Program-made: the position numbers and the translations under genes
Part shown: one piece after another, positions 1 to 64,000 of the stretch
Layout: each line of letters opens with the position of its first letter
How positions within the stretch are numbered: the first letter of the stretch is position 1
Source: Amphiura filiformis
Taxonomy: Eukaryota; Echinodermata; Ophiuroidea; Amphilepidida; Amphiuridae
DNA length: 64,000 bases
Direction: 5' to 3'
Assembly: GCF_039555335.1 (NCBI RefSeq)
Contig: NC_092647.1
Span: 11,813,594 to 11,877,593 of the forward strand
Notes under the pieces: generated by a model
What the model saw: only the letters and a program-made list of their open reading frames with translations
The model's database searches: none
Told to the model about the DNA's origin: nothing

Positions 1-165
1 TGTTTGATGAGAATCGAGCCGTATAATACAAACCACATTTTAGCAGGAAATCTCTGATTTGCAAGGGATAAAATCATTTATAAAAATGCATATCATAGGC
101 TAATATAAATTAATTCCGATATATATATAAGTTATCCATGTAATACAAAAAATTGAAACTTAGCC

Positions 166-531
166 TTAAGGGGGTACTACACCCCTGTGTAAATTTGTGA
201 CTATTTTTGCATTTTTCTCAAAAAATAATAACACACTGATAACAAAGGTTATGTATATTATTGGGGGAAGGAATCCAATTACTACACTGAAATTTCAGTG
301 ACTCAAGACAAGCGGTTCAGTATATATGATAGGAAATGAGGTACAACCTAGCGGTACCTTATTTCTTATCATAAATAACGAACCGCTTGTCTTGGGTCAC
401 TGAAATTCCAGTGTAGTAATTGGAATCCTTGCCCTATAATATACATCACTTTTGTTACCAGTGTGTTATTCGTTTTTGAGAAAAATGCAAAAATAGGCAC
501 AAATTTATCGAGGGGTGTAGTACCCCCTTAA
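166..531. mobile_element. Palindromic MITE with TTAA target duplication
   Basis: The two halves are near-complete reverse complements around a centre near 345. Left end TTAAGGGGGTACTAC (166 onward), right end GTAGTACCCCCTTAA (517-531). TTAA at 166-169 and 528-531 looks like the target-site duplication, which is typical of piggyBac and Kolobok-type elements; the superfamily is inferred only. The homologous place in copy I (about 9,575-9,585) reads CTCAACCTTAAATAACAT without the element, which supports a clean insertion. No coding capacity. Confidence 0.85.
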
Positions 532-879
532 AAGATAAATAACATTGCATTTGAATCGGGAATAATATTAAAAATAATGAAACTAGTCGCAAAACAAAAG
601 TGACTTGATCTACTTTTTCATGCAAGTGTACCTGTACACACAATTATTCTAAATTAACATGGGTGTCTTCTACTTGATTGCTAGCAATTCTGTGTTGCGC
701 AATAGCGAAGTTGGAAACCAGGTCTTTAAAAAAATCACTTTCTGTATTACGTCACCATTTTCAAAGAAACAATGGCTAAAAAGGCTGCCTTTGCAAATCT
801 ATGTAAACATAGCTTGTCTTTAGAGCTATATGTTGCCTATAGCGCCTGTACAGGTCTGCTTTTATGGGACACGGTACAG

Positions 880-1030
880 GTAAAACACTGCCTACTTAAA
901 GCACTGTGTTGTTACTATATGTACGACAGGTGTGTTTTCTGGTGGGAATTGACAATCTCGTAATCAATGTTAAGATAATATGATTACTGATACGGAAGAG
1001 TTTCATTAACATTTAACGATCCTCTCAAGA
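880..1030 (-). repeat. Nine-copy core of the super-unit (copy 1)
   Basis: Minus-strand copy of the best conserved stretch of the super-unit. Read on the minus strand it starts near CTTGAGAGGATCGTTAAATG and continues through a conserved TAATCATATTATCTTA-like segment, then a run resembling AACAACACAGTGCTTTA. Other copies: 9,760-9,909, 10,370-10,512, 15,141-15,290, 24,058-24,215, 37,961-38,110, 43,168-43,310, 48,373-48,510 and 57,611-57,720. Confidence 0.75.
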
Positions 1031-1762
1031 TAAACTTGGCCTCCAGCGTTACGCGTACGGAAAGGGGATCTTACCAGTTTTGTTTGACTATCTTACTCTT
1101 AAAAGGATCCAAAGGTGACTTTTTATACAATACCAGCAATATTTTGAGAAAAGCAGGACATATATATACACACGAAAAAGATCATGATATATTCCCCTTA
1201 TAATGACTGCAGGAAAGATAGTTTGATTTTGAGATCCATACCTGGATTTCAACATTATTCACATCATGATAGGAGAGAGTGTAATACCCTAATTAGGATT
1301 TGTTCATAAAATGTTATACCCTTTTATGATTGCCACTGACAAGTTATGCACGACTTTGATATCCTTCCTAGTATCAGGTATGATATAAAAGTTAATTTTC
1401 CCGCGCAGGTTTTCCGAAAACAAAATTGCCGGGCAGCAAGTATGTAAGTACGTGTGTCATTGTATTGGAAAATCACATCGTGAATTTGAGAGAACTGTTT
1501 GAGAGAATGTTTAAACATGTAAGATGCTCGCGTAATTCTTTACGCCTAAAATCTTATGAGATGAGACATTTCGGTTGATTATAGACTACACACCAAACTC
1601 CTGGGCTGTGTTAAAACCTTAATGTACGATCTTTTTTCAGAATATACCTTTATTTTTTTCAAAACCGATTTTTTGGCATATTTCTAATACTTACACATGT
1701 TCCAACTTAAATCTGTCAAATTCGCCCATTTGTAGTAAAACGGGATGATTTTCTGTTAGTCC

Positions 1763-1801
1763 GACATATTATCATAATTTTTAGATTATGATAATATGTC
1801 G
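1763..1801. repeat. Perfect short palindrome
   Basis: CGACATATTATCATAAT is followed after a short loop by its reverse complement ATTATGATAATATGTCG. It sits directly beside another palindrome (1,810-1,867) and interrupts super-unit copy H. Confidence 0.8.
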
Positions 1802-1809
1802 CAAATCGT

Positions 1810-1867
1810 AGTCTCCTACGAAGCCAGTTTGGTTACGCTACCTCCACATGTGGCTGCGTAGGAGACT
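1810..1867. mobile_element. Miniature of the AGTCTCC terminal-repeat element
   Basis: AGTCTCCTACGAAGCCA at the left end pairs with TGGCTGCGTAGGAGACT at the right end. The interior AGTTTGGTTACGCT matches the ends of the longer element at 23,456-23,807, so this appears to be an almost fully deleted relative of it. The distance is only 58 bp. Confidence 0.7.
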
Positions 1868-2660
1868 AACTCTGATACCGCACTCGCCGTCCTGATCCAA
1901 ATAGTGCGAGATATTTCGAGTGATAGAGGTGAAGTTTATGATGTTGTTTCTTTGCAAATTCCCAATGTTTTTCGTGTCCAAATGTATTGAGAACTTTCAT
2001 AATGATTGCATATTATCATTTTGGAAGAAAAATCTAAAAATTTAAACAAATCGTACATTAAGGCTTTAAATTTGTATTTGTTGCTCTCGGTGGGTTGAAG
2101 TGCAAATGGAATTTAGGGCATCGTTCTTGTCAAAACATGTAAACTGGGGCATGAATTGTCTGGGTACCTCACCAAGTTTCAACTGTCCGATTATAGTCTG
2201 ATTAAAGTTCAATATTAAGTACTTCAATGGGAATCTACTACAAATTTATCCCTATATGACATTTTGGCTTCAATAATCTATGAGGTAATTTGAGCGATCG
2301 CAAATGTGCTAAATTTAGATTATCAACGTTTAAGTCAAATCGTCTCATCAATTTCGTCGAGTGTTAAGACAGGAAATACGAGGAGCTAGGCCAAATCTAT
2401 ATGTTGCTATAAGTCGAAGTTGATATGCTGATTAAAGGAAATAAAAATGACGCAAATGTGTTATTGTTGTAACGTCGTTAAGGGCCATATACTCGACTCA
2501 AATATTCGACGTAGATCGTTTAACATTTTCAATTCAATATTATCTTCTAACGAATGTTTGTTCACTTTGTTGGTGAAAAATCCCGACCGGATGTTATTGT
2601 CTTACCGAAAGTACTCCAACCTTGGTCTTGAGCAGAGGATTGAAGATGTGTAGAAAGAAC

Positions 2661-4725: not shown

Positions 4726-5530
4726 CAATAAAAGAGTTTGCGATTTGCATCTTTCGCCCGCATTTCCATCTCTAACGAATTGAATACATGAATACAAAAG
4801 CCACCTAAGTCCATAGGAAGTGATTTTGAGAGAAAAACCTGTGTATCATTTTAATTCCTTCAGTTAGATTTACCTGGTCAATATGGTAAGTTTAACGTGC
4901 AAATGAGTGGATTAACCTGTATTAGGTATGACGATTAGCATTTCAGGGACTTCGTGGGGTTCATTTTAAATTTTGGTTTTTTGAATCATATACAAAGACA
5001 ACAATGTTAGAATGAGATTACCACTAGTAAGATAATACAAAATAAAGCACACAGGTATGTATAATGTTGATAAGCATTCTGCTATGTAATATAAACCACA
5101 CACTTTCCTTTATTAAACCCATTTTTTTTGTTCAAAAGTCACTCTCTAGCAATGAATGTGTTACAAGTGGACTTTTATACATAATGGATTTCAATCAATG
5201 TGTTACAAGACTCAAATCATGGAATTGGGTGATTCTTTCATACATGCTATTTTTCACATGCTTAATAGACACAGAGAATGAATTTGAGTTGTTCTTTCAT
5301 ACATATGACAGGCCTATGTATAGCAACAATTTCCCATGCTTAACTCAATTTGGCCAAAGTATGGACTTAGGTGGCTTTTGTATTCATATATTCAATTACA
5401 TAGTACATTAAGGTACTAATGTTAAAGTCAAACAAGCACATCAATTAAGAATTAGAGAGCTTAAACTAATTTAACGCTCTTTCCTACTTCTTTGCAAGAT
5501 ATTAACTACTGCAGTATATTGCGTGGTATT
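4726..5530 (-). repeat. Super-unit segment shared with 13,485-13,660
   Basis: The flanks of the AATT element form one continuous match to 13,485-13,660: AATAAAAGAGTTTGCGATTT, then CTCTAACGAATT, then ACATAGTACATT, then ATCAATTAAGAATTAGAGAG and TTTCCTACTTCTTTG. The same segment therefore ends both minus-oriented copies H and I, and 13,526-13,545 serves as the empty site for the insertion. Confidence 0.75.
4782..5393. mobile_element. 612-bp non-autonomous DNA transposon, AATT target duplication
   Basis: Terminal inverted repeats of about 34 bp differ at only one position: left GAATACATGAATACAAAAGC, right end the reverse complement of GAATATATGAATACAAAAGC. AATT at 4,778-4,781 and 5,394-5,397 flanks it. 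The empty homologous site at 13,526 reads CTAACGAATTACATAGTAC, with one AATT. The 115-residue plus-strand frame at 5,064-5,411 runs through the right terminus and has no recognised domain, so it is not called as a gene. The near-identical ends suggest a fairly recent insertion. Confidence 0.88.
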
Positions 5531-5876
5531 TGATGCGGCGTATGCATTAGTAGTAGTCATGTATGATGCAAACCGCGACATTTCCTAGCGGATGTATTTC
5601 CAAAAGTCAAATAATGTTATGATTCTTTAATATCATAGTCATAATAAGTGCATGAAAGATTCAAATATTAAACCACATTTGTTTGTTTAAACAGTGGGCC
5701 GTAGTTCAAGAAGAAGTTCATCGATGATCGATCATCATAATGCCTTAGCGCGACATTAATGAAACTTTAATTTTACTGGGAACTCAGAATATATCAGAAT
5801 CTAGCGATACAACTCGCTTATATGATAGGGAAAGTCTAAATTGTAAAGGATAAATGCCTTTTATAAAGTGCATATC
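5531..5876 (-). repeat. Super-unit copy I, left edge
   Basis: The stretch AAAGGATAAATGCCTTTTAT to GTGCATATC matches 60-95 of copy H and is continued at 9,488 after the foldback. No coding sequence recognised. Confidence 0.6.
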
Positions 5877-6707
5877 TAGTACATGGTGTTACCTAACCCA
5901 GTGCAAAATTTGCTACATTAGTGGAACCAATACTTTTTAGCTTCTAAATACCCCTACGAACGAAACCTGAGTTGGTTCCATTTGTTTAGAATGTGTCTTC
6001 GGCGGCCATTTTGAAATTCAAAATGGCCACTATATTTAGCCTTTTTTAAGCCATATTTGTCCCGAAAGTGCGCAAAGTCATATTTTTCTTACTGATTATT
6101 TATACTTTTAATTGTCATATCCACTAAGAACATAATTAGGACCATTTTCTAGAATCCAAGATGGCTGCCAAATCCAAAATGGCCGCCAATTTGTCTAAAA
6201 TGGTCTGCCAGCTATAAGGATATTGATTTCTTTCCTTTTTGGCTGATTTATTCACTACTTATGTTTCTGAGAATCCACTGAGAAATACAAACTTAATTTG
6301 GTCCATTTTCTCCAATCCAAGATGGCCTCTAAATCCAAAATGGCCGACTTTTTTTAAAATATGGCATACCACTTTAGGCAATTACTATCATTGAGAGTAA
6401 AATACATGTATCTCATTTCTGCCAAGATATGGATAAGAAAATGATTCTAAACATCTTAGTCAACAACATTGTTTAAGGAGAATATAGGTGTATTTCACCT
6501 TTCAAAATGGCCACCAAAGTATCTTGAAATTAGCTGAGATTTTCAGCTAATTCGTCAGCATTTATGCAATGAAATGCAGAAAATCACGTTTTAAAAAGTT
6601 GAAATTTCAATATTGTAATTCAACTTTAGATGTTTATGATAGAGTTGACCTTGATGCATTTTAATGCCTAGTTGTCATCATCTATGTTATCAGTATTTTC
6701 AAGTTCC

Positions 6708-7804
6708 TCAGCATAGCTGTATTGGTACACTCTTCATCTGCTCACAAGCACATGCTTCTGTACAAGTCAGATTGTATCGTCTGCAGGAACATCTTCTGGA
6801 GCATTTGCTTATTCCACATCCGCACCTAACAAGCTCGACAACAGACTCGGGAGCTATTGTAATGTCTGACAGGATATGTACTGGAATGTTATCTGCATCA
6901 CTCGAGCATCCTAGCTTGAACGGGTCTAGAATATTTGGATTTACCACAAGGTCTTGACTCCAAATATATGCTTGTATATGGGCCGACAAAATGTGTTGAT
7001 GCCACGCACCAGAAGTTGGAGGGATTTATCAATCCCCCCTGGTTGGCTCTTGAAGCGTTTGCATCTCAGTTTTTCAACTGTGTCGGCCTGTAGGTCATTT
7101 TTTGTGCCCATGAGCCTGCACAAAAACCTCTCACAGCCTGAAACAACACTTTGAGATGACATTTCTGCATCACCAAGTTGACTCAGTGGTGTGAGTTCTT
7201 CAGGTGTTGCTTCAGTGAAGGCATTGAAGGCAGTCTTCTTGCCTATACCTCTGATATGTCCACATGTGTCGCATCCTGCTTTTGATGTCCCAAGACGGAT
7301 ATGTATTGGTTTCAGCAAGATTTTCCTCCTGTTGTCACCTGTTCCCATACACATGATTGTCTGAAGACCAAGAACCGTTAGTCTTCGAAGAGCAAGGACC
7401 ATAACACCTGTATCTTGGGTCATGATATGGACATTCTGTCCAGCTTCAGAGATCTCTGCTGCATGTAGCATGATTAGAGTGTCTGCTTCCTCTTGTGTAC
7501 TAAAACCTGTCGATGGCTGAACATGATTCATGTTGCTTCTCACATGCAGACGTGTTACAGTGACTACTGGAATCTTCAGCTTCAAAACTTTGTTTGCCAG
7601 GTAGATTGCGAGGGTGTCCTTAGTTTCATTGTTAGCCAAAAATGGCTTTGAGTCATGGATGGGAGTTATGTCAGCAACAATGTAGGCTCTCGCTGATGAT
7701 AGGACTCCTAACTTGCGACGTCTGATTATATCTTTGATTGAGTTTTCTCTTCCATAATTATCAAAGATGACACGGCAACCTTCATAGTCACTGTAGCACA
7801 TCTG
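6708..7804 (-). pseudogene. CXC-domain transposon-like protein, left copy (broken)
   Basis: Coding matter runs from about 7,804 down to 6,708. From the amino end it shows EEADT (about 7,490), TQDTGVMVLALRR (about 7,410) and SGCDT-like AGCDTCGHIRGIGK (about 7,260), three acidic motifs spaced like a PIN/FEN-type nuclease core; that fold is an inference. The carboxy end, in another frame at 6,708-6,989, has a cysteine pattern CGCGISKCSRRCSCRR then CACE, which fits a tesmin/TSO1-type CXC domain. The frame break near 6,965 is shown by the right copy, where the same stretch is continuous. The second D of the DTD motif is G here but D in the right copy. An open frame reaches 8,005, but its first 68 residues are antisense of the right copy and LINE tail, so they are artefacts. 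Such proteins recur in many invertebrate genomes from memory; function unknown. Confidence 0.75.
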
Positions 7805-8663
7805 CATATGAAAAGCAACATGAATCATGTTCAGACATCGACAGGTGTTAGTACACAAGAGGAAAGCAGACACTCTAATCATGCTACATGCAGCAGAGAT
7901 CTCTGAAGCTGAAAAGAATGTCCATATCATGACCAAAGATACATACATACATACATACATACATACAACGGCTTTTTTATAGCGCAATTTCAAAGAAATG
8001 ATCATTGCACTTTACAAAACAACTTACGCTACTACTTAAGACTACAAGAAAACAAAAAACATGCAAAAGAAATAACATCAGCAATGGTTAAAAAGATGGG
8101 TTTTCAGGCTACATTTGAAAGTAGTAAGAGTGGGAGACGACCTAATGGATGAAGGAAGATTATTCCAGATTCTGTTCCAGGTTCCAGATTGCAGATACAG
8201 ATGTTATAGACCTTGCTCTTCGAAGACTCACGGTTCATGGTTTTCAGACAACCATGCTTATGGGGACAGGTGACAACAGAAGGAAAATCTTGCTGAAACC
8301 AATACATATCCGTCTTAGGACATCAAAGTGTTGTTTCAGGCTGTGAGAGGTTTTTGTGCAAGCTCATGGGCACAAAAAATGACCTTCAGGCTAACACAGA
8401 TGAAAAACTGAGATGGTAATAATTCAAGAGCCAACCAGGGGGATTGATAAAATCCCTCCAACTTCTGGTGTGTGGCATCAACACATTCTGCGGGCGCATA
8501 TACAAGCATAATGTTTGTAGTCAAGACCTTGTGGTAAATCCAAATATTCCAGACCCATTCGAGCTAGGATGGTCGAGTGATGCAGATAACATTCCAGTAC
8601 CTATCCTGTCAGACATTGCAATAGCTCCCGAGTCTGTTGTCGAGCTTGTTAGGTGCGGATCTT
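7805..8663 (+). pseudogene. CXC-domain transposon-like protein, right copy (broken, interrupted)
   Basis: Plus-strand counterpart of the left copy. It starts at the head-to-head junction near 7,800, runs to 7,936, is split by a LINE fragment with AGATAC on both sides, and resumes at 8,193 with DTDVIDLALRR. A segment encoding the GCDT motif (present in the left copy at 7,140-7,300) is missing at about 8,331. The final part (8,444-8,663) encodes SQDLVVNPNIPDPFELGW in one frame and then stops at RCGS. Compared with the left copy, about 115 bp that encode the CXC cysteines are deleted there. It cannot give a full protein. Confidence 0.72.
7943..8192 (-). mobile_element. 5'-truncated LINE 3' end with (TATG)n tail
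   Basis: Read on the minus strand this encodes the usual end of CR1/L2-type reverse transcriptases (TTFKCSLKTHLF) followed by a short 3' UTR and a (TATG)n tail at 7,943-7,967. AGATAC flanks it at 7,937-7,942 and 8,193-8,198, as a 6-bp target duplication. Its UTR (GCGCAATTTCAAAGAAATG) resembles that of the longer LINE at 24,879-24,920 (GCGCAATTCGCAAAGAAAG), so both belong to one family. Confidence 0.8.
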
Positions 8664-9487
8664 GAAAATAATGATAACATGGATGATGACAACTAGGCAT
8701 TTAAATGCCTCAAGGTCAGCTCTATCATAAATGTCTGAAGTTGAATTACAATATTGAAATTTCAACTTTTAAACACATGATTTTCTGCATTTCATTGCAT
8801 AAACGCTGACATATTAATCTTAGCCAATTTCAAGACATTTTGGCGGCCATTTTGAAAGGTGAAATACACCTATATTCTCCTTAAACAATGTTGTTGCACT
8901 ACTTTAAGATGTTTACAATCATTTTCTTATCCATATCTAACAGAAATGAGATACGTGTGTTTTACTCTCAATGATAGTAATTACCTAAAGCGGTATACTA
9001 TATTTTAATAAAAGGCGGACATTTTGGATTTAGAGGCCATCTTGGATTGGAGACAATGGACCAAATTAAGTTTTTAGTTCTCAGTGGATTCTCAGAAACA
9101 TTAGTAGTGAAAATAATAAGCAAAAAGGAAATCAATGTCCTTATAGCTGGCAGAACATTTTAGACAAATTGGTGGCCATTTTGGATTTGGCAGCCATCTT
9201 GGATTCTAGAAAATGATCCTAATTGTGTTCTTTAGTGGATTGTGACAATCAAAAGTATAAATAATCATTAAAAAATATGACTTTGTGCACTTTCGGGACA
9301 AATATGGCTTAAAAAAGGCTAAATATAGTGGCATTTTGAATTTCAAAATGGCCGCCGAAGACACATTCGAAAAAAATGGAACCAACTCAGGTCTTGTTAC
9401 CTAGGGTATAAGGGTGCAAAAAAACCTTGGTTCCACTAATGTAGCAAATTTTGCACTGACTTATGATAATTCGACGTAACACCATGT

Positions 9488-11610
9488 ACTAATCATGTAA
9501 TATGATGGGCTAATGCAATTTTTGCCCGATATATAAAGTATTCGTGTAATGATAAAAAAAAAGATGAAACTCAACCTTAAATAACATACACATAGATCAA
9601 TAGAAGCATTTGAAATGGGATTAATATTATTAAATTTCCTAATTACGTCAACATTTTCAAAGAAACAATAGCTAACAAGTGCTGGTTTGAAAATCTAGGA
9701 AACATCGCTTGTCTTTAGATCTCTACATAGGGATTATCATTTATGGGACACCTTGTACAGATAACACTTTACCTACTTTACGCACAGTGTTGTTACTACT
9801 GCTGCGGCAAGTGAGTTTCCTGGTGGGATTTCATATTGTCTTAATCAATGTATAGATAATATGATTGATGATACAGAGTTTCATTAACATCTAACGATTC
9901 CCTAAAGATATACATCAACCCAAAATTAGGCAAATCGGTCGTGAATTGTAACAAAAAGCCTCCAGCGTTCTGGAAAGGGGATTTTACCACTTTTTTTTTA
10001 TCTTACTTTATTTTTAAACTTACATTGCTAATATATAGAAGCTTTTGAATCGGGAATAATATTAAAGATAATGAAACTAGTCGCAAGACAAAAGTGACTT
10101 GGTCTAATTTTTCCTGCAAGTTTACTTTACACAATTCTTCTAACTTAACACGGGTGTCTTCAAGTTGATTGCTAGCGATTCTGTGTTGGAAATCAAGTAA
10201 TCAAGTTGGAAACCAGGTCTTAAAAAACTTTTTGAATTACGTCACCATTTTCAACGAAACAATGGCTAGCAAAGGCTGCCTTTGCAAATCTCTGTAAACA
10301 TAGCTTGTCTTTTGAGCTATATGTTGCCTGTACAGGTCCTCTTTTATGGGACATGGTACAGGTAAAACACTTTTACCTACTTAAAGCACTATATAATTAT
10401 GTACGACAGGTGTGTTTGCTGGTGGGAATTAACACTCTCGTAATCAATGTTAAGATAATATGATTACTGATAAGGAAGAGTTTCATTAACATCTAACGAT
10501 TCCCTCAAGATATGTATACATCAACCCAAAATTAGGCAAATCGGTCAAAAAGCCTCCAGCGTTCTGGGGATGGGGATTTTATAACTTTTATTTTTTTATC
10601 TTACTCTTAAAAGGATCCGAAAGTGAAATTTCTTGTACAAGAGCAAAAATATTTTGTGATTGCCACTGAAAAGTTATGATTTTGATATTCGTCATAAGAT
10701 CAGGTATGATATTATCCGAATAACTTTCAAGTTACTGAGCAGCTAGTATGTATTAAAGTAGGACCTAAATGTGTTGTTGTATTGGAGAATCACATTGTGA
10801 CGTGAGTTTGTGAAAGAGAAATGTTTGAACATATAAGATGCTCACGTAATTCTTGCCGGCTGAACCTGATGGGACATTTCGATTGACTAAACGCCATACA
10901 GACTACACACCAAACTCATGCCCTGTGTTAAATGGGTGACATTACTCTCGGTGGATCGAAGTGCAAATGGAATTTAGGGCATCATTCTTATCAAACACAT
11001 GTAAACTGGGGCACGAATTGTCTGGGTACTTCACCATAATCGCAACTGTCCGGTCATGGTCTGATTAAAGTTCAATAATTTATGTATTGCAATAGGAATT
11101 TTCCTCAAATTGATCTCTACTAACATTCCCGACGACATTTCGGTTTTAATCAATTATTGGGTAATTTGAGTGGTCGTGAATGTGCTAATTTTAGGTTATC
11201 AACGTTTAAGTCAAATCGTCACGTCAATCGCGAACAGTGTTAATCAAGATAGGAAATATGAGGAGGCCAAATCTATATGTCTTACTAACACCTGACTAAG
11301 TTAAATGTGGTTTGCTGATAAGATGGAATAACAAATTACACAAATGTGTTATTTTTGTTCTCGACGTTAAATGCCATACTCCAAATTTTCGACGTGTGTC
11401 TAACGAGGCATCAACATTCTGCACTGTTACATGTGGGCATGTGCCATATTGTAACATTTGCTGAGGAGGACGCCATTTTTTTCAAAAATTGATTGTAGTG
11501 TATCTTATTAAGCTAACATGCCCTGAAAAATCAAGACTTTAGGTGCTGTTTTGTCAAAATCCGAGATTTTGAATAAAGCACAGGGACCGTCGTTTAATTA
11601 TTACGATGGA
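9488..11610 (-). repeat. Super-unit copy I (minus-oriented), distal part
   Basis: Continues copy I after the foldback. Landmarks in the same order as copy H: two cores (9,760-9,909 and 10,370-10,512), a CACCAAACTCATGCCCTGTG stretch (about 10,908), GGTCTGATTAAAGTTCAA (about 11,058-11,075) and GCTGATAAGATGGAATAAC (about 11,314). It ends with a stretch (11,430-11,610) also found in copy J at 17,120-17,310. No protein-coding frame of note. Confidence 0.75.
9640..10600 (-). repeat. Local tandem duplication of ~0.6 kb in copy I
   Basis: 9,640-10,010 and 10,240-10,600 repeat the same series: TTACGTCA...CATTTTCAA, ACAATGGCTA-like, a TATGGGACA segment, the nine-copy core and CCTCCAGCGTTCTGG. Copy H has only one such block (750-1,060), so the doubling happened in copy I. 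The two core copies in it are at 9,760-9,909 and 10,370-10,512. Confidence 0.75.
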
Positions 11611-12352
11611 TATAGTTCCGCTCCCTCTACACAAACATGTTTGCGTACCATTTCTTGATTCTTTTGTCCAGACGAGCAATTTGACATCATATTTGCCAAA
11701 ATCGGAGTAATTTGAAATTTTTGCCATTGTACAACCAAAAACGTGACCTTTTACCCAAAATGACGTTTTTGTACGATAACTCTAATAATATGTCGTAGAG
11801 AGCACAAACAATAATTTTTTTAAATTCTTGTAATCAGACGAGTAATTTCAACAAGATCGGGAGCATTTTGCATTTTTTTACCCCTCTATGACCAGGCGTC
11901 AAATCCAAAATGGCTCCACATCTGAAAAACAACATTGGATCTTGTACTTCATGCTTCTACTATAAAGTACACAATGCTTTTAGGTTAGCAGCTGTACTAG
12001 ATATAAAAATGCAAATCTGACAGTAAAGTATATTTCCTGCTAGCTCCAGGATCTTCTCAGAAGAATAATGAACACTTTAGGGCCTACACATATTAGCAGC
12101 ACACAGTTGCTCGCATGCGCGCATTTTCCTCTAATCAAACGTGATGTTATCAAAAGCAAATCTGACAGCAATGTAGCCTTTCCTGCACCAGAATCCCCGC
12201 AGCCAAAAAAATAACCACTTACACAAAAATACCACATGCACACACGCCGCAAGCATACTATTTTCTCTTAATGTGATAAAAGATGTAAAACATGATGCAA
12301 CCTCCATCTCTTGGATTCCTTAAAAAAAAAATAAGCACAATCTGAAAACCTA
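11611..12352. other. No gene; contains a module repeated at 19,041-19,260
   Basis: The part 12,000-12,300 (CGCATGCGCGCATTTCC, CAAACGTGATGTTAT, CACACGCCGCAAGCATA) is a direct copy of 19,075-19,260, with shorter versions at 28,565-28,700 and 30,610-30,660. The 70-residue minus-strand frame at 12,040-12,252 has a GCGDSGAGKAT stretch that resembles a P-loop by chance; the copy at 18,927-19,142 lacks it, so no gene is called. Confidence 0.55.
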
Positions 12353-14250: not shown

Positions 14251-14262
14251 TCGTCGTCGTCG

Positions 14263-14334
<72 letters not shown>

Positions 14335-14536
14335 ACGTCATCGTCGTCGTCGTCCTCACCGTCGTCGTCGTCGTCGTCGTCACCTTCGTCGTCGTCGTTG
14401 TCGTCGCCATCTTCATCGTCATCGTCATCGACATCGTCGTCATCATCGTCATCATCATCATCGTCGTCATCGGTCGTCATCGGCATCATCATCGTCGTCA
14501 TCGGTCGTCATCAGCATCAGCATCGTCATCATCATG
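14251..14536. repeat. (TCG/ATC)n microsatellite within copy A
   Basis: Mixed TCG and ATC trinucleotides. They create long Ser, Asp, Val/Ile and Met/Thr frames on both strands (14,131-14,664), which are artefacts. Copies B, C, E and F carry other microsatellites at the matching place. Confidence 0.95.
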
Positions 14537-47782: not shown

Positions 47783-47819
47783 TACCAGTATTGTTAAACT
47801 TACAGTGTCGCAGATAAGA

Positions 47820-52689: not shown

Positions 52690-53505
52690 GCATAATAACC
52701 TTACACGTGTAAGATGGCATCTTACACGTGTAAGATGGCATCTTACACGTGTAAGATTGCATCTTATACGTGTAAGATCGCATCTTATACGTCTTAGAAT
52801 CTAGCGGGTTGTTTAAATTGACGAATCACATATAAAGAATCTATATTTAAACCACAAACAACCAATCATCTTACACGTATTCATCTTTGACCAATGAAAT
52901 CTCGCCATAGCATTTCTTACACGCGTAAGAATTGCCTATTAGGGATGGACGGTATTCCAGTTTGACGAATACATACGACGAGCGTCGAATAATCTCAGCC
53001 ACGATATCAATATGTACCACGGTAGATTTCGCAAACGTGATCATTTTAAGTTACTTTAACCTCTTGAAATTAATTGATATTGAGTACAAATTGTCTCCAG
53101 ATAACTGAGGACGGTCCAACAATCGGAATAATTCCTGACAGAGTTTCGGCATACAATACAGGACATTTTAGCACTTTAGAAAATGCCTTATTTACGATAT
53201 TGGTGACGAGCTCTATACTTATCCTTGGTGCGCCGCTAATAATATCGCGTATCGTCCATCACTAAATTCAAAATCTTACACGTATAAGAAGTCGTGGGTG
53301 TTACAAATCTAAAAACGTCTTTACATATTATTGGTCGAAGTTTGCAACGCGTAAGCTGATTGGTTGTTTGTGATTTCTTACTCTGTGATTCGTCAACTTA
53401 AGAATCCCGCTTCATTCTTACACGTGTAAGATGCAATCTTACACGTATAAGATGCATTCTTACGCGTATAAGATGCAATCTTACACGTGTAACCTTACAC
53501 GTTTG
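52690..53505. mobile_element. ~815-bp element with clustered TCTTACACGTGTAAGA palindromes at both ends
   Basis: Left cluster: units of 20-21 bp at 52,701, 52,721, 52,741, 52,762 and 52,783. Right cluster: 53,417, 53,438, 53,458 and 53,479. Each full unit holds the 16-bp palindrome TCTTACACGTGTAAGA with a CACGTG centre; variants are ATACGTG and GCGTAT. Single units also lie at 52,870, 52,915 and 53,272. Inside these, AGCGGGTTGTTTAAATTGAC with AACAACCAATC pairs with GATTGGTTGTT and GTCAACTTAAGAATCCCGCT, so the whole is inverted. The 63-residue frame at 53,074-53,265 (one hydrophobic stretch) has no recognised family. Confidence 0.82.
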
Positions 53506-55424
53506 TCTTACACGTTTTTTGGACCACTTGGCCATTCATAGGAACACACGGAGGAACGTATAAGTTACTGACCTGTTATCAAAGATGGTATTAAAAGCAA
53601 ATCAGATAATAACAATGACACTAATGAAAGTGATTTTCCATTTTTTTCCACCAATGTCATCTCTCTTATCATAATTTCATAAGAGTAAACTAAAATCAAG
53701 GGTTTCACTAACCCCCCTCCGAAATGGTAATTGGTTTTGTTGATCAGCCTTACACTCGGATAAAGTTAACATTTGAACGCAAAATGAACGTAAAATGAGC
53801 GCAAAGGATGGATCTACGATTAAATAAAGTCATTTGGCGTAAAACACAAGCGTTTTAGAATACCTGATGAAAAATCTAAGAGTGGTCGTATAAAACAAGA
53901 CGCATTGATATTAGATATTTTAAAATGGTTCTTCAGTTGATTGTATTATGTAACTGTTAAAAAGACTACCGAGTGACCTTACACTGACATTTAATATTTA
54001 CTGTTTAGGACTTCATTTACTTGGGTTGACAAAAAGAGTTCCCGTATACAACGTGTCATTTGATCACCTTTTGATAAAATGACACGTCTTTTACAGTTTG
54101 CCTTTCTACTTGTATGTAAATAAACCTACTCGAAAGGAAAATAGCAGGAAGTGAGTGTTATGGATAGGGAGAGTTGATTGATTTGTGGTTGTAGGCAAGG
54201 ACGTGGCTTTGTTGGGTTAAGGTATACTTTTCAAGCAAAATAAGCGGATATGCACATATTTATCGAAAGGTTTCTTTTCAATATCAGATCCTTGGGATCT
54301 ACCATGCAAATAGCTATTCCCAGGCCCGTGCGGGGATGTGGGGTGTGGCTGGTGCGGCTCCCCCTTCCCACCCCCACACACACACAATTCAGAATTTGCG
54401 ATTGTAGCGATCAAAAAAGTAAGGTTTTTAAAGCTTTTTTTAGTCAAAAAAGGTCCAAATTTTGGCAAGAAAGTCCAGTTTTCACAAAAAGGCCCCCTTG
54501 GAAAAAAGTCCACTATTTTCAAAATAAGCACCCCTTCCTCAAAAAAATCCTGCGTAGGGGGCAGGCTATTCCCATTATGGTTGTTCACTGGGTATAATAA
54601 AATTTAATGATATTGTAAAGATTACGATGCCCTTTATGCGGCTGCTCTTCTAGTTCATCCCTTTGCTATTGTGCTTGCTCTTGTTCTTTACTCTGACAGT
54701 AGGGCTATGTCTTCTCTTCATCCTCTGGAATCCAAGCTGCTCTTCTCTGCCTGAGCAGGCAACATGCTTCTTTAACAGAGGTCTGTGAAACTCTTCCAAA
54801 TTCAGAGAAAATGTTACTTTTGTACACTTGAGTCATATCAAAACAATATTATTTATAATCTGAAAAGTTAAATGAAATACTCGTAAAGCAAATGTCTTCG
54901 ATTCATTCAAATTTGTCTGGTCAGGCAGGGTTGCCAGGCCAGGCAGTCGGACCGGACGGTTAACTATACATTGATTGTTTTGTGTGGTCATTTGGAAAAT
55001 ATCGTACATTTTGCCGTAAAACAAGTTAAAAATAAGCACCTTTATTTGAATTTTGAGGAAAATTTGAAGAAAAGAAATTCTTCGATACAACCTGTAATTA
55101 TGACTCATATACTCACTGAAACAAAATGGTACTTGACATCCTTACACCTAAATGACAGAAAAAATGGAACCAACACCAGTTCTATCATATCAAGGATGTC
55201 AAGCACCATTGTTTCCCTAAATGTAACACGTCAAAATGCTAATTCAAATATCACTACACAGCACCTAATAGTATACCAGAAAGCCGAATTTGATACCCTA
55301 ATTTGCGGCACAATTCTGGTACTGGGTATGTCCCTCGAATGTTGACAAGGGCGGCAATTTAATACGAAGCTATACATCACGGAAGATTGTAACATTGTGA
55401 ACAAAACTAACATACTTGTGCCAT
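53506..55424 (+). repeat. Distal end of super-unit copy E and unresolved DNA
   Basis: 54,090-54,310 (CCTACTCGAAAGGAAAATAG, CAGATCCTTGGGATCTACC) matches 34,130-34,400 and marks the far end of the unit. The rest has no recognised gene. The 123- to 124-residue frames at 54,217-54,597 and 54,971-55,345, and the 182-residue minus frame at 55,231-55,779, have no domain I recognise; the last crosses the edge of the element at 55,439. Confidence 0.5.
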
Positions 55425-55438
55425 TTGTTATTCCCTTT

Positions 55439-55920
55439 TCAACAACTCTTCCTATACCTTTGTACAGGAGCCAAGCGTTGTTAATCCGTGAATACACAGT
55501 CCAGTAGCGTATACGCGAACGCACGGTTACGCATGAGCGCGTAAAATTCGTCATGTCTGGAATGTATGCGTAAACATGAACGAGATCGCTTTGGCGGTAG
55601 CAGCTAGTAAATACATGAAATAATACCGCTTTATTCTTTAGTTTTATTGCTGATATCAACAGAGAAATACCGCAATCTTCTTGTATAAGGTTGAGCGGCA
55701 ATGACAAACGGACATTCCGAATGAAAGAATCGTGTGAATTAGATATCTTTAGCTTGTTTCGTTGTTGAAAGGGATTCAATCGCGTCCGGTGCGTCTGCTT
55801 GGTTTACTTCGCTCGGGCAGCTAAAGCTAAAGCTGCCCTCGCGAAGTAAACCACTCAGACGACGCGGATGCATCGTTGTTAATCGGTGATGAACAACGGT
55901 GAAACATGATTGAATCCCTA
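55439..55920. mobile_element. Composite foldback insertion in copy F
   Basis: CAACAACTCTTCCTATACCT matches the element at 38,485. Its right part (55,769-55,920) is the GTCTGCGTGGTTTA hairpin MITE, here GGTTTACTTCGCTCGGGCAG with the complement, and a nested palindrome GGGCAGCTAAAG...CTTTAGCTGCCC in the loop. In copies B and E the flanks CCCTTTT and ATCAGCATAC are joined, so this is an insertion. Confidence 0.75.
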
Positions 55921-56329
55921 ATATCAGCATACTTATAATTGATTTGGTCTCCTCATATGTCCTGTCTCGATTAACACTACGATCCAATTGACGTGTCGAT
56001 TTGACTAGTTATAGAAATGTTATCTAAATTTAGCATTTCCCACCGTTTAGATTAGTTCATCGATAATTTCCAAAATGTCATAGAGATATATGCATAGTCA
56101 ATATCTATTGAAAATAGCAACACAATATTGCACTCTAATCAGACCATGAGGAGACAGTTGCGATATGGCGAAGTACCCAGACAATTCATAATTTATGACA
56201 AGAATGCAATAATGATGCGCTGTAACATTCCATTATGTCCCTGTGTTGCAATGTTCAAATGAAAATGCAGAATTAACGTGTGAGACACTTAATAAGGTAA
56301 CGATCTTCGATGCTGATATTTGGAACCTC

Positions 56330-56885
56330 GTCTAAATCCTACCTTTCTTTCTCCTCTCTTTTCACCTCTCCTCTCCCTCTTCTCATCCCCTCTCCTTCCT
56401 CTCCTCTCGCATTGTCTCGTCTCGTCTCGCATCGCCTCGTCTCCTCTCGTCTCGTCTCGTCTCCTCTCCTCTCCTATCTTATCCTATCCCCTTTCCTCTT
56501 CCTTCCACTCCCCTTTCCTCTCCTCTTCTTCCCCTCCCTCTCCTCTTCTCTCCTCGCCTCTTCTCCTCTCCCCACCTCCTCTCCTCTCCCCACCGTCCCT
56601 ATCCTCTCCTCCCTCTCCTCCCCTCCCCTCTCCTCACCATTTCCTCTCCTCTCCTATCTTATCCTAACTTATCCTATCCCCCTCCTCTTCCCTCCCCTCC
56701 CCTTTCCTCTCCTCTTTCCCCCCCTCTCCTCTTCACTCCTCTCCTTGCCTACGCCTCTCCTCTTCTCTTCTCTCTTCTCAACTCTCTTCTCCTCTCCTCT
56801 CCTCTCCCCCCCTCCTCTCCTCTCCCCACTGTTCCTCTCCTCTCCTCCCTCTCCTCTCCTCTCCTCTCCTCTCCTATTATTCTCT
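56330..56885. repeat. ~550-bp pyrimidine (CT-rich) tract
   Basis: Almost all C and T on the plus strand, with CTCTC, CCTCT, TCTCG and CCTATC words. It generates Ser/Leu/Pro frames (56,310-56,924) that are not genes. It holds the microsatellite place of the super-unit. Confidence 0.95.
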
Positions 56886-57610
56886 CTATCACTGTCTGTA
56901 AAAATTAACCAACTTCATCAGTAAGATCAATGACACACTTAAAATAATGGCCATGATATTGGCTGATGAAGTGTCCGTCCCCGGGTGTCCGTCTTTTTTG
57001 GAAAGGGCTAAATTTACCAACATAATTATATCAATCTTTCAGTGAGTGAAAATGCTTGAGACCAGTTTAAGTAAGACACGAATGAATTCAATTCCTTGAT
57101 GTCAATGACTTCGTCGTGTTAAAAATAATAATAAATCAGCCTCGAGTTATATTTGTAAGTGTAACTTGAGGCCGCACTATTATATAGTATAACATTAAAA
57201 TATCTTTATTGCTATTAGGGACGCTTGGGAACTTCCCGGGTACTATATTGCGTGCTAGATGACCTTCACACTTCACAGTGGTTGCCTAGTACTAGTGGGG
57301 TTGGAATTTAATAGGGTAAAATACGCGCGGGACTCTAACAGCATATCCCTAAAAGACCCAAGGAACTGCTAAAAAAAGAAATCAAAATATCTCACCTTGC
57401 CTGTGACAATACAAAAAGACTTCTGTAGCTAATGTTGCTCTTGTGGTCGTGTTTGGATCCTTTTTGAGAGTAGAGTATAATATTATGGTAAGATCCTTCC
57501 TGTAGTGCCGAGGCGCGCTGAAGGCTTATTGTTGCAATTCGCGACCGATTTGCCTAATTTTTGGTTGACGTAATAGACTGAATAAACTATACAGAGTATA
57601 TAATTTGAAT

Positions 57611-57720
57611 CTTGAGGGCATCGTTACATGTTAATAAAATTTTACTTATCGCCGACCATTATTATTATATAAATAATGATTACGACCATTTTATTTCCAC
57701 CAGGAAACTCACCTGACGCA
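57611..57720 (+). repeat. Nine-copy core of the super-unit (copy F)
   Basis: CTTGAGGGCATCGTTACATG to CACCTGACGCAGTAAAAACA; the most diverged plus-oriented copy. Confidence 0.72.
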
Positions 57721-58145
57721 GTAAAAACATTTCTTTACAATGGCAGTGTGTGCCAATATCTGTGATGTGATTGCTATTTTATTTCTGCGAAAAATACCTA
57801 CGTTCAAAATGCTTTATAAGATCTTGTTTGCAAAGTGATTATTCTTTGTTGCGTGTATCTGAATCACCCGTAGTCAAGTCATTCATTTATATTATAACTT
57901 CGATTGTTATTCCTGTTGATTTTCAATATTTGACTCCCGTCGTGGACCCTTATAGCACAAAGTAACGTATCGAATTGCTTACGTATACCCACACTAAATT
58001 AGCTTTTCAAATTTCTTTAGGTTTACTTGTCAAATTATTTTAAACAAATCAAGCGTATTTCCTTTCGCCGGCTCATTTCCCGCAGCCTGAATACCACCTC
58101 TGTTCCAATTACAACTAGTGGCAAATGGTGGTCATAGACCACAAA

Positions 58146-58895
58146 CCTAGCTGGGGCATGTTGGTGTTTTGGAGGTATCTGACCCCTGCAAAATGTTCCA
58201 AAAATTTTCCCCTGGTCATGAGGTTTGTTGTCACCGAGTTTGAGTCCCATACTCCTTACAGATGCCTAGAAAATTAAATTAATAAGATTTGACCCAGATA
58301 ACCTTTGACCTGACCCCTGCACAGTGTTCCAAAGTGTTCCCCTGGTCAGTAAGTTTGTTGTCCCAAAGTTTGAACCATACCCCTTACAGATGTCCAGAAA
58401 ATGCATTTCGAAAATTTGACCTCTGCATGACCTTTGACCTGACCCCTGCAAAATGTTCCATTGGTCATGATATTTGTTGTCACTGAGTTTGAGCCCCATA
58501 CCCCTTACAGATGTCCAGATAATATAATTGTAAGATTTTACCCCCTTAATGACCTTTGACCCCAATTCTGTGTGTAAGGTATGGGCACTGGGTAAAGCCG
58601 ATGCACATGTGTAAGTGACGTCATTGTGCTATGTTAAATGTGGCAGAAGAAGCATTTTGAAGATATTTGGTTATATACCGAAAATGCCCCTTTAATGACC
58701 TTTGATCCCAATTCTGTTTGCACCATATGGGCACTGGATATAGGCGATACATATGTGCAAGTTACGTAATTGTAGGGTGTAACATGTAGGAGGAGAAGCA
58801 TTTTGAAGTTTGTTGCCAGAAGAAGAAGAAAGAAGAATCGGATAGCAAAACAGTACCTAGCTCGGGGGGTTGAAAACCCCCCAGCTAGGTAATGA
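58146..58895 (-). repeat. Dispersed element with ~120-bp internal repeats and a terminal hairpin
   Basis: CCTAGCTGGGG at the left (58,146) and a GC-rich hairpin (CCTAGCTCGGGGGGTTGAAA / CCCCCCAGCTAGG) at the right end. Inside, tandem units carry TGACCTTTGACC and CATACCCCTTACAGATGTCC (58,255, 58,377, 58,498). The end hairpin with TAG-type words suggests a Helentron/HINE-type element; this is inferred. Frames at 58,035-58,912 come from the repeats. Confidence 0.7.
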
Positions 58896-59279
58896 GGTTT
58901 TGATGCATACAATAATGCACAATACTAGTCTAATGTCATTCCTTGTATACAGTTCCTGTATGCGATACTACTCATCGTTCATTATGTTTCCAATTCAAAT
59001 ATTTATATACAGACAAAAGATGTGTGTGTTTTCATTGATCTTCTAATCGAGATTTAAATACAATGTCCAAAATACGATGTGCTGTAATCATGATAATATT
59101 ACGAAAATTTCAGAAAGCAAAGAAGCTGGAACAGTTACGTAGAAATTATCTGTAAAAAAGGAAAATTACCGCATATTCTTTCTGAAAGTAAGACAGTTTA
59201 TTGTGGCACAGTTCCGGCAAATTTGCTTGTTGAAATGTCCTTGACGTTACAGCACTATATATTACAAAGTAAACAGTAT

Positions 59280-59642
59280 GTTTCGACTATATTTATAAAT
59301 ACTTATTATAAATACGCACGTGACCACCTCTGCGCTGCCATAACAGCTACTAGATAGTTAGTCTCGAAGTGGCATTCCAGATAGCGGTTGGTCTTCCTGT
59401 ACATTTGAATGTAAAGGCGGTAAACATCGCGAGACTGTGCAGCAAAATTGATAACATATTGCAAATTCTGAATCCCTCCCCCATGTGTAATAATTTTGCT
59501 ATTCAATTAATACTTAAATTTGGTGGTATTTATCTAAAGAGTTCCTATCTCTTTCAATGGTATAAGGATCACGCTTGCTGGTATGTCGTGCCCATAGGTC
59601 ACGGACGTATTTATAAATGCGTATTTATAAATATAGTCGAAG
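59280..59642. mobile_element. MITE with TTTCGACTATATTTATAAAT ends
   Basis: TTCGACTATATTTATAAATA and GCACGTGACC on the left pair with GGTCACGGACGTATTTATAA and TATAAATATAGTCGAA on the right; inverted repeats of about 45 bp. The frame at 59,369-59,653 runs into the right arm and is not called. Confidence 0.75.
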
Positions 59643-60420
59643 GTAGCTGGTAAACTACATTAGTAATGAAAATATTTCTATATTGAGTCATTTACATGTT
59701 ATAATATGGTTTATAATACTCTCACACCGCATATTCACAAGTTACGCACGATGAAGTACATTACAAAGAAATTAAACATGAGTTGCCAGGTGCCATACTG
59801 TATTTGATGAAGTACATTGCTAAAAATTAAACAAGTTCTCATGTGAAACATACTGCATATATTAATGTTCAAATGTCACGTAAAGATATATTATTGATGA
59901 ACTCTTCTTGCACGACGGCCCATGGATTAGAACTAACAAAGAAATATGGTTTACATTCGATTCTTTCATGAACTTGTTATGAATATGATATTAAAGAATA
60001 ATCACCACATTGGTTTGACTTTAGCTGGTTTTATACTGTTATGCAGCTTGCCGCTGACCGCGGCGTGACGCATGCGCATTGCAGACAAACGGATACAATC
60101 AAGGCTTGTGATTGGCTGGTACGTCATGACAGAGGTATTATGTCACCTATCTCATATCGCGGTTTACATTATGCATGACTACTATTTATGTAAACAACTT
60201 CACACATCACGCAAGCCTTTAAAAGTGTCAAAGACTTTAAATTAGTCAGAAGGATCTCTATTTCTATTTAAAAATGTTTCGTAAGTTATGTATAGTTGCT
60301 TGACTTCAAATTACACTCTTGGTGGTGGAAAATTAAAATGCATTGAAATGCTTTTCGGATGTGTCAATGGTACAGAAATGTAGTGCACTAAATTGCAAAA
60401 GTACTTTACTACCTGACTAT
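59643..60420 (+). repeat. Super-unit copy F, middle part
   Basis: ATGAACTCTTCTTGCACGAC (59,897), CGATTCTTTCATGAACTT (about 59,958) and CTTCACACATCACGCAAG (about 60,197) match 27,263-27,470 and 44,826-45,035. A GC-rich piece at about 60,022-60,168 (GCTGACCGCGGCGTGACGC) is absent from those copies and may be an insertion. Confidence 0.68.
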
Positions 60421-60480
60421 CGAGAGAAAGAATGTGTGGAGAATGAGTGAGAGAATGAGTGAGAGAGAGAGAGAGGGTGA
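60421..60480. repeat. GA-rich simple repeat
   Basis: GAGTGAGA and GAGAGA runs. Confidence 0.85.
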
Positions 60481-60703
60481 AGAGAGGGAGGAAGACATTG
60501 GTGCTTGTACATTAAAACATTATTCCATGCAGTAGTAATGTCAGACTCGTATCCGTTTGTCAATCTGTTGGCATCATCTATATAGATTTCTGCATAATGT
60601 CAAGGCTATTCCCAATTTCAGAAAAATAGAGCACTCATTTTTTGGGGAATGTAAAAAAATATATAATTATCCTGTTTTGCCAATGAGACATAGCCAAATC
60701 TTG

Positions 60704-60973
60704 GTTGGAACTAACTGGCAATGAAACAGAAATTTGAATATTTGGATTATAAGGGTAACATGCAATGTTTTGTTACGATATTTTATTACAATAACGGTAG
60801 GCAAAGATTTGACACAAATTTAAGCATAAAAATTTTGAGTATAGGCTTAAATATTACTCTTATTCTTAATACACACAAAAAACCTTAAAAATTGAAGATT
60901 TTGGCCCTCATTCGCAAAAAGTTTATCAAAATAAAAATATGAACAGTTAACTTTTACTGCCAGTTAGTTCCAA
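60704..60973. repeat. Candidate MITE with GGAACTAACTGGCA ends
   Basis: GGAACTAACTGGCA (60,704) and its perfect reverse complement TGCCAGTTAGTTCC (60,960) flank 240 bp of AT-rich non-coding DNA. Only 14 bp pair, so the call is modest. Confidence 0.5.
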
Positions 60974-61013
60974 AGTGAAGGTTCAGTCTTGAATATTGTT
61001 TAAAGTAGTATTC

Positions 61014-61175
61014 AGACTTTTTATTGTACGTACAATATTGTATGTAACATATATACGTTATTTAATCTATTGCCATTCTATTTCCAGTAATGTTTAAGTT
61101 CTAACGAATGTTTGATGATAAATAGATTAAATAACGTATATATGTTACATACAATATTGTACGTACAATACTCGG
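61014..61175. mobile_element. Palindrome with perfect 48-bp arms
   Basis: 61,023-61,070 and 61,122-61,169 are exact reverse complements (ATTGTACGTACAATATTGTA...), separated by 51 bp. CAGACT beyond each arm suggests that the element ends a few bases further out. No coding capacity. Confidence 0.88.
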
Positions 61176-61632
61176 AGTCTGTGGAGCGCTTTATTGTAAA
61201 ACAGGATAGTCTTTTTTATTACTGCTGTATTGTTCTGAAATCGGGACTAACTAGCCTTGACATAAAAACACTCTAAATAACAGTCAAGGTTTTACTTAAT
61301 TGCTGACCGCATTTTCCCGTTAAGCCATTCCGTTCGAACATTGCTTACTTAAAATCATTGCAATTATTTTCGATTTTAGTTTGATTATATAAAATATACA
61401 TAAACAAAAGAGAGACTTTAGTATTCTGCTGCAAATTGCAGTTTGCAAAATACTTGGAAGTTCTACTCAAGGCCGTCAATTATTAAGTCAATACTCAAAG
61501 CAAAAAGCTGTTCTTATTTCCCTTGGTATTTCGAAGGCTGTAGTATTTAGTGTATTTCATCATAAATAGGTCAGGATTGGCAGGATAGTTGTCGCGTTTG
61601 ATTTAACGTGTCTGCAGACTATGAAATACTAA

Positions 61633-61891
61633 TATGTGATGCGATCAAGCAAAATCGGTCGGAACTCGGAAATATTGATTTTGAGATATAGCCAAACAAA
61701 GGATCTATTTCTTTTTGTTTCCTCTTGTTTTTGAAACTCTTTCATTGCTCATCATATCTTTGGAACTGGTTGTTCTATTTCAATGGGGTTTTCTGCAAAA
61801 TCCAGCTTTGTAAATGCTTTTACTTTTCTATAAGAAACTGAAAATTAAATATTTCCGAGTTCCGACTGATTTTGCTTGATCGCATCACATT
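61633..61891. mobile_element. GATCAAGC-family MITE, complete copy
   Basis: ATGTGATGCGATCAAGCAAA and TCGGTCGGAACTCGGAAATA on the left pair with the right end in reverse; inverted repeats of about 45 bp. It belongs with 28,845-29,005 and 32,078-32,275. Confidence 0.85.
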
Positions 61892-62960
61892 TAAAGATGC
61901 AAGAAAAGAAATGCCCTAAACTTATAATGCGCCTTTGGAGAAGGATATACAAACCGCAGTGAAAGTATACAAAAAACAGCAACCAGAGACAAAAGGGTAC
62001 TTGGTCATCAATTTCATTCATTGTCGCGTTTGCAAAACGGCATAGGAACCACTGCCAGGATGCTACGTAATGACGGGTTGAAATACGCTCGTATACATTA
62101 TAGATGAGTTTTGTTCAGGGCTCATGTTTTTAAAAAACCCGCCACATCACAATAATGCTATTAGACATCGTAGGTGTTAAACGGGGTTCACTCAAGCATA
62201 TAAATATACCAGTCCCTTGCCTTTGTTGATAAACATTGAGGTCAACTCATCTATACTGTATCTCATCTCAAGTTGAGAGTAACGCCTTGTTGGATTTTGA
62301 AGTGCACGTGGCAGACTCGAATCAAATGTAAATTTGTGTTATGCTTTATATACATGTATATTTATAACGTTTTTGCTTACGCATGTTCCATGTATTTTTA
62401 TGGAGGTCTTGGTACATCCTTTGGGGCAATACATGGCGAAAGTTTTGTAGTTATAACTTTTTATGTATATTGCTATATAGATATATACTTTTTCAGAATA
62501 AAGGGAAAATCAAGCCTTATGAGAGACGCAATATTCTATATGTCATTTAAAGGTCCGTAACCCGATCGACAGCATCATCCTACCGATTTTTTTCATTGTT
62601 GATGAGGTTTTGGTATCATTTAATAGATTATATTTTTCTCATTACCATCCTGAAATTTGACGATCCAATTTGATGTATTTTCGGATAAATCAAGAAACAA
62701 ACAGGCTATACTGGTAACCACCTTCGCCATTCTGGGTAGGAAAAAATGATTCCGTGAATAAGAGCCGTTTTACTCCCGTGCCAATTCGCACGAACGGAAA
62801 TAGGTCCGAAAAAATGAGGGCGCTATAATGATAAACGCTTAAAACAAAAATAAAGAAATACATAAAGGATGAAATAAATACAAAACAAGACCTTATCTTG
62901 TTAAGTATGATACGAGGAATGTGAAAAAAATATGAGCAAAAATATCCCCCACTATAAAAT
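61892..62960. other. No gene recognised
   Basis: TATAAATATACC near 62,199 could be a TATA-like word, followed by a 95-residue frame (62,273-62,560) that starts from a non-ATG codon and has no recognised domain. Not enough to call a gene. Confidence 0.4.
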
Positions 62961-64000
62961 TAATTAATTAATTAATTAAAAATATTATAAAAAAAACATT
63001 TTTTCATTCAAACAAATCCTAAAATAAAAGATAAGTGTAAAATGTACGTGATGATAATATACAAAATTAAAAGGAAATGTATCAGGGTCAAATTAAAATA
63101 AAGAGAATGAGATATTTTGTCAAAAGAATGATGAGCGTAGTGGTATGGCGAAGCACTCGACGGCAGTGTTGTTTCTGGATGCCGGACCACAATGCAATTC
63201 ATGCGTACCAACTTATTGGCTTACTAATTGTGCTAATTATTCACTTTTACGCTGACAATGTTCTCGTTTTCTCACATAGATGCATAAAGGGGACAATATT
63301 TGAAATTGTATGTAAGTTTGAAGACAATCCATATCCTAAACTGATAGGGTTACCCCCCCCTTTAATTGCAGATATTGCATTTGTATTTTGGGAGCAAACA
63401 TATGCAAATCACAAGCCTCCTAGATCCTGAGGAGAAACACGGTATCTACTATGCCCTTTATTTACACATACTACCCTTTTACATGGGCGGTAATGGTGAC
63501 AAATACAGTGCAATATTCTGTCAGCCCAGTTCATTTTCTGTCTGACAGCGACATCTAATGACACAATAAAATGGAAATACATCCATTTTAATTATCTATT
63601 AAATCTTATTCGCTTACACAGATAGATCTCTCAAATGCCTGTAGTGTAATGTGTAAATAAATAAATAATGTCAAAACCCACACACTGCCCGTCACGTATT
63701 ACATACTACTAGTACCTATATTGGTACCTCAGTTCTCCTTTTTGGTGCCCTACTTTTATTATACCGCCTACCTAAAATATGCCAAATGTATAATTCTCGA
63801 CGTACGTAGAGGAACATCAAAGATTACCTTAGCTACTCCTGAGAATATAGGGTGTGTTACGTATGTGTGCCAAAACGCAAGTTATTGAGACTGATGTCGA
63901 GAAATGGAAACTTAGAGGCACTAGTATCACAGCAATCTTTTATATCGAGAGGAGTACACCTCAATCACACTTTGTATGGTTTAAGGTTATCATAAAATAA
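62961..64000. other. No gene recognised
   Basis: Begins with a short (TTAA)n run. A 117-residue plus-strand frame (63,077-63,430) has no recognised domain. No terminal repeats or RNA genes seen. Confidence 0.45.

Follow-up and report, generated by a model that had tools for sequence, protein, structure and literature searches.

A probable array of old, decayed segmental duplications in a 64-kb stretch of the Amphiura filiformis genome

Macrosatellites such as D4Z4 and DXZ4 are uniform arrays of a large tandem unit that vary in copy number. Local segmental duplications, or low-copy-repeat clusters, bring together adjacent kilobase-sized copies, some direct and some inverted, among which inversions and partial duplications nested in others occur. 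Human examples are described as usually more than 90% alike (PMC4053137). Among invertebrates, the Helentrons of the oyster are non-autonomous transposons with tandem repeats, and these Helentron-type elements are reported to carry short satellite-like units (PMC7492417). Here we describe a stretch of 64,000 bases from the ophiuroid Amphiura filiformis (NCBI RefSeq assembly GCF_039555335.1, contig NC_092647.1, positions 11,813,594 to 11,877,593 of the forward strand), hereafter the window, in which a non-coding unit of several blocks recurs in both orientations. From sequence comparison we propose, at a probability of about 0.68, that segmental duplications make up a local chromosomal array here, now old and decayed. 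The repeats are genuine, yet they are best read as ordinary genome wear of a known kind and not as a new kind of element. The window has 36.7% G+C, 0 ambiguous bases, a CpG observed/expected ratio of 0.81 and numerous microsatellites, and from its sequence alone it would be taken for eukaryotic, probably invertebrate, DNA.

Self-comparison chains followed by profile searches gave the module order A0 A1 H M2 B K D C0 C C2 E F within copies, and a sliding-seed search agreed with the profile-defined modules. The order of the blocks, their orientations, their divergence and the insertions among them can be read directly from the window. We count eight copies, Ua, Ub and Uc on the minus strand and U1 to U5 on the plus strand (Table 1), of which only U2 holds the full module set. 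C and E stand between two B blocks in U3; U4 carries a reverse transcriptase, and neither K nor D was found in it. Module C0 is a palindrome (32,070-32,275, 28,835-28,997 and 61,635-61,889) that folds as RNA at -65.4 kcal/mol (z -7.5); profile search located two examples in U2 and one in U5 but none in U3 or U4. The far end of the unit is known from two F copies only (34,022-34,353 and 53,991-54,296), which contain the positions, 34,130 and 54,090, where a first-pass annotation of this DNA had placed matching far-end words. That annotation had also proposed a unit of about 9 kb repeated in the orientation order minus, minus, plus, minus and then plus. The order is as it claimed, and a multi-block non-coding unit does recur in both orientations; an intact 9-kb unit does not, as length and content differ between copies.

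The landmark words that led to this proposal lie in the places given for them, and mismatch-tolerant searches returned matches far above chance. With up to 3 mismatches, the A-type word occurs six times (0.02 expected), at 13,891, 19,712 and 46,573 on the plus strand and at 2,189-2,208, 11,052-11,071 and 16,846-16,865 on the minus strand; another copy claimed at 56,131 has more than 3 mismatches and escaped the word search, and a profile recovered it (A1 at 56,074-56,282). The B-type word is found at 15,493, 24,396, 38,310 and 48,734 (2 mismatches in the last; 0.22 expected) and the C-type word, matched exactly, at 29,110, 32,381, 41,344 and 50,888 (0.20 expected), with a three-mismatch occurrence at 11,708 that we take for chance. 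Self-alignment yields colinear diagonals, for example 13,797-15,618 with 46,482-48,842, and a further colinear chain pairs 22,202-24,578 with 36,935-38,497; ten dinucleotide-shuffled windows each gave 0 non-trivial self-matches.

The extent and length of the unit had both been overstated. Rather than building the whole window, recognizable unit modules cover 16,914 of the 64,000 bases (26%), and self-similarity of any kind, transposons included, covers 42%. On the minus side successive A0 modules lie 8,888 and 5,750 bases apart, on the plus side 17,341, 9,566 and about 9,020 bases apart, the last measured with the split A0 of U5. Three of these five spacings are near 9 kb, yet the contents differ, and the 8.9-kb stretch includes a 3.6-kb palindromic element. 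We take the common spacing of about 9 kb largely for coincidence, and a true 9-kb period was rejected because spacing and content vary among copies.

As in clusters of segmental duplications, several colinear copies of a kilobase segment lie close together in the window, and module order continues across unit boundaries, with D followed by A0 three times. Compared with human segmental duplications, however, these copies are old, most block pairs being about 59-89% alike. The window resembles macrosatellites in having a large tandem unit, but its copies are not homogenized, their content differs and their orientation changes; in place of uniform head-to-tail units of constant length we found spacings of 5.8-17.3 kb, mixed orientation and the identities just given. 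With oyster Helentrons it shares a mixture of invertebrate non-coding repeats and mobile elements, but its blocks span kilobases and no element ends were recognized at the inspected edges.

At three unit boundaries D shortly precedes A0 (13,517 to 11,346, 5,393 to 2,458 and 45,229 to 46,368). This recurring order argues for an array, since independent insertions are not expected to produce it; the sequence between D and A0 at these boundaries is mostly not alignable. The tails of Uc and U1 adjoin near 15.8 kb, and at 13,683 U1 is abutted by a truncated D on the minus strand, an arrangement such as inversions or inverted duplications would leave. Self-comparison shows 10,712-13,990 recurring in part as 16,536-19,811, and the C parts of the doubled D-C-E segment in U2 are 94% alike. 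The larger insertions are confined to single copies and thus postdate the duplications. In the clearest case an element of about 480 bases splits A0 of U5, where U2, U3 and U4 are uninterrupted at the same point; a relative of this element sits elsewhere in U3.

We infer both the copying mechanism and a lack of function for most of the unit. A non-coding segment with blocks A to F would have been copied repeatedly beside itself, mostly head to tail, through unequal exchange or replication error. Inversions or inverted duplications may have reversed some copies, with switches near 13.68 kb, near 15.8 kb and between 17.3 and 19.5 kb, and in a later step the D-C-E part of U2 would have doubled and a second B block arisen in U3 and Ub. 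The copies would then have diverged and been broken up by indels, microsatellites and transposons landing in single copies.

The constancy of module order was assessed by permutation, using a hand-typed table of 63 module positions from the profile search. Ordered pairs made up 51 of the 59 neighboring same-strand module pairs; one pair repeats a module and seven fall back, two where the minus array steps from A0 to D and the rest at the inner repeats of U2 and U3 and where U3, U4 and U5 begin. Among 20,000 permutations the fewest falls were 18, and 0 were as low as the observed 7. The table retained weak M2 matches and left out the overlapping sub-modules A2, J and I, the part of M that overlaps A, reverse-strand matches of the palindromic C0 and of H, second fragments of split matches, a truncated C match at 29,585, a weak C2 match at 16,473, as well as families G, N, P, TE1 and TE2, taken to be dispersed or inserted.

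Tested for coding potential, the modules behave like non-coding sequence. For the substitution, indel and pN/pS tests (pN/pS, the ratio of nonsynonymous to synonymous differences), matches in 11 listed repeat or transposon stretches, or no more than 400 bases from the diagonal, were excluded. The remaining 138 matches comprise 33,276 aligned bases, 19% of them different, and show no triplet rhythm in their substitutions, the statistic lying below 299 of 300 shuffles; their 1,264 indels include 537 of a single base and 239 whose length is a multiple of three. Median pN/pS was 0.99 over 391 stop-free windows of 30 codons, the lowest values being 0.20, in B, and two from the A core (0.24 and 0.29) that share one sense relative to the unit. 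When A, B and D were aligned over many copies, they gave pN/pS of 0.65-1.10 over the frames, with at least one stop per row on average in each frame, and differences were spread nearly evenly over codon positions except in one phase of D (frames with 8.8-10.8 stops per row). No frame under purifying selection common to the copies was found, in multi-copy alignments for A, B and D and pairwise for the other blocks. Pfam was searched with 8 of the 11 stop-free frames of at least 150 amino acids, the 3 others being of low complexity, and with 559 frames of 42-149 amino acids that passed a complexity filter. At 0.005 the 559 shorter frames returned one reverse transcriptase, one DDE remnant and five other families once each (E 0.003-0.005); the longer ones gave one below-cut-off match to HEPN_RiboL-PSP (0.0039) and, in two reverse transcriptase frames, stray below-cut-off matches, all of which we take for chance. 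Stop-free frames, Pfam, pN/pS, codon phase and indels yielded no consistent frame, and coding exons were rejected. The claim that the unit codes for no recognized protein thus stands for the modules, but not for the window, whose insertions hold reverse transcriptases and the DDE remnant.

Several observations weigh against an array of duplications. The module order was drawn from the same data with some matches dropped, so the permutation result speaks for consistency and is not an independent prediction, and an inverted E piece of U5 (61,409-61,643), which contradicts a constant order, was left out of it. The search for copies covered this 64-kb window, and further copies may lie elsewhere in the genome. 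Sequence between modules is mostly unalignable, even where the modules are about 90% alike, and the cores of A and B are conserved beyond what plain decay predicts. A0 has its edge at roughly one place in six copies, with mostly different sequence outside, like the end of a mobile element; beyond it only Ub and Uc continue together in the sliding-seed search. This shared edge and the unalignable sequence between modules therefore keep alive an explanation that takes the unit for a large, ancient non-autonomous transposon, or pieces of such an element, inserted here repeatedly, the blocks being what remains of each copy. That the window is rich in mobile elements fits such an origin. However, the order from D to A0 is retained over three boundaries, the similarity of Ub and Uc extends past the A0 edge, and Pfam scans found no transposon protein in the modules themselves. 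Terminal inverted or direct repeats and target-site duplications were not seen by eye at the inspected edges of A0, B, D and F. We consider a transposon origin unlikely, and the evidence within the window leans toward a local segmental array over a giant transposon.

The conserved cores raise a different explanation, compatible with a duplication array and in our view distinctly unlikely: each unit might contain a functional non-coding core, either a regulatory element or a non-coding gene. The array would then be a cluster of duplicated non-coding functional units, in which a B core of about 115 bases, and perhaps an A core of about 105 bases, were held alike by selection or gene conversion while the remainder decayed beyond alignment; such a core might even belong to an unrecognized family of non-coding genes, as an exon whose splice donor is conserved. 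In its favor, the B core is more alike than the remaining B in 35 of 36 copy pairs and the A1 core more alike than the rest of its block in 20 of 21; U3b and U1 match at 97% of 116 core bases and at 65% of 271 others. Local variation in conservation exceeded all of 500 column shuffles (500/500) in both A and B, and an AG and a following GTANG, the latter at the end of the B core, each occur in 8 of 9 rows of the B alignment (by eye; a lead, not a test). Yet the cores were picked after viewing the data, the pairs share ancestry and are not independent, and flanks near the alignment limit inflate the contrast. The effect in D is marginal (1 of 500 shuffles reached it), the core of U5 is only 69-77% like the others, no Rfam family reached threshold, and the consensus folds of both cores are weak, with one two-sided change each and no covarying structure. 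By calling the unit one kept so many times, the first-pass annotation implied selection, and in this sequence at most one or two cores of about 110 bases could speak for it. A dead cluster of protein-coding genes, its small exons decayed or missed, seems very improbable. Spacing of about 9 kb and mixed orientations are usual for gene clusters, and the few windows of low pN/pS in B and the A core would suit one; against this stand the median pN/pS, the stops in A, B and D alignments in which no frame is distinct, the abundance of single-base indels, the absence of any gene-like Pfam family above cut-off in the 559 and 8 frames scanned (family cut-offs being displayed for the 8 and for the DDE remnant), and an A-core frame without a match among solved structures.

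Table 1. Copies of the unit and associated elements in the window
Feature	Position	Strand	Evidence
Copy Ua: B, M2, A1, A0 (right to left)	638..2514	-	profile modules; edge from sliding-seed search
Copy Ub: A0, A1, M2, B, second B, D; 3.6-kb palindromic element within	5393..11616	-	self-comparison, profile, sliding-seed
3.6-kb near-palindromic element inserted in Ub, ends TAGTACATGGTGTTAC	5877..9491	.	self-comparison
Truncated D of minus array, touching U1; orientation switch point	13517..13683	-	profile modules; edge inspection
Copy U1: A1, H, M2, B, K fragment	13682..15814	+	profile modules
B core in U1, where block B is best conserved (edges approximate)	15140..15262	+	conservation along alignment
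Copy Uc: A0, A1, M2; tail to tail with U1 near 15.8 kb	15850..17313	-	self-comparison, profile, sliding-seed
Copy U2: A0 to F, D-C-E doubled; insertions ~19.8-22.2 kb, 25-26.6 kb	19457..34353	+	self-comparison, profile, sliding-seed
Insertion in U2 with reverse transcriptase frames	24973..26622	-	RVT_1 44.7 bits (cut-off 29.6); second frame 21.3 bits, below cut-off
DDE superfamily transposase remnant	34902..35171	-	Pfam 29.4 bits (cut-off 28.6)
Copy U3: A0, A1, H, M2, B, C, C2, E, second B, K, D	36802..45229	+	profile modules
Copy U4: A0, A1, H, M2, B, C, C2, E, F	46362..54296	+	profile, sliding-seed
Insertion in U4 with reverse transcriptase frame	49118..49768	+	RVT_1 63.2 bits; strand opposite to U2 insertion
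Copy U5: A0 (split by inserted element), A1, H, B, K, D, C0; inverted E piece	55390..61889	+	self-comparison, profile, edge inspection

As the reverse transcriptases are found on opposite strands and each in one copy only, they were ruled out as parts of the unit. Within the palindromic element of Ub, a stop-free frame of 356 amino acids (6,944-8,011, minus strand) had no Pfam match at 0.1; a sub-range gave only weak matches above that value, and solved structures gave none. The insertion at 19,827-22,185 splits A1 of U2 and has inverted similarity between its ends in the sliding-seed search; its minus-strand frames at 20,370-20,897 and 21,228-21,701 had no Pfam match at E 10. Two elements of about 665 bases (36,143-36,807 and 39,178-39,849) are 91% alike and nearly wholly palindromic, with TTAA near both ends. 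Elements at 46,838-47,783 and 28,202-28,564 have inverted ends, about 225 and about 137 bases long respectively, and carry TA at or close to each edge, as in Tc1/mariner-like elements. A palindromic microsatellite at 45,696-45,877 strings together about 20 ATAAC copies and then about 14 of TGTTA (the reverse complement, in another phase), and a 120-base unit is repeated 3.5 times with 88% matching at 3,699-4,125, between D and A0 of the minus array.

Rfam returned 0 matches at gathering score in the window; of 13 matches below threshold (E up to 5), the five strongest fall in palindromic elements or the palindromic microsatellite. A scan of the window with bacterial settings found no tRNA genes. 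Comparisons with a phage collection (bases 26,000-50,000), with plasmids (one protein) and with viral and prokaryote contigs (exact-pattern scans over part of the window) gave no match, and phage, plasmid, viral and prokaryote origins were set aside on these tests, each covering part of the window.

Read as an array of segmental duplications, the window would offer an example of such an array dissolving, in which block order outlives sequence identity. That its transposons are confined to single copies shows the duplications to be the earlier event. Should the cores turn out to be constrained, the locus would become a test case for duplicated non-coding function.

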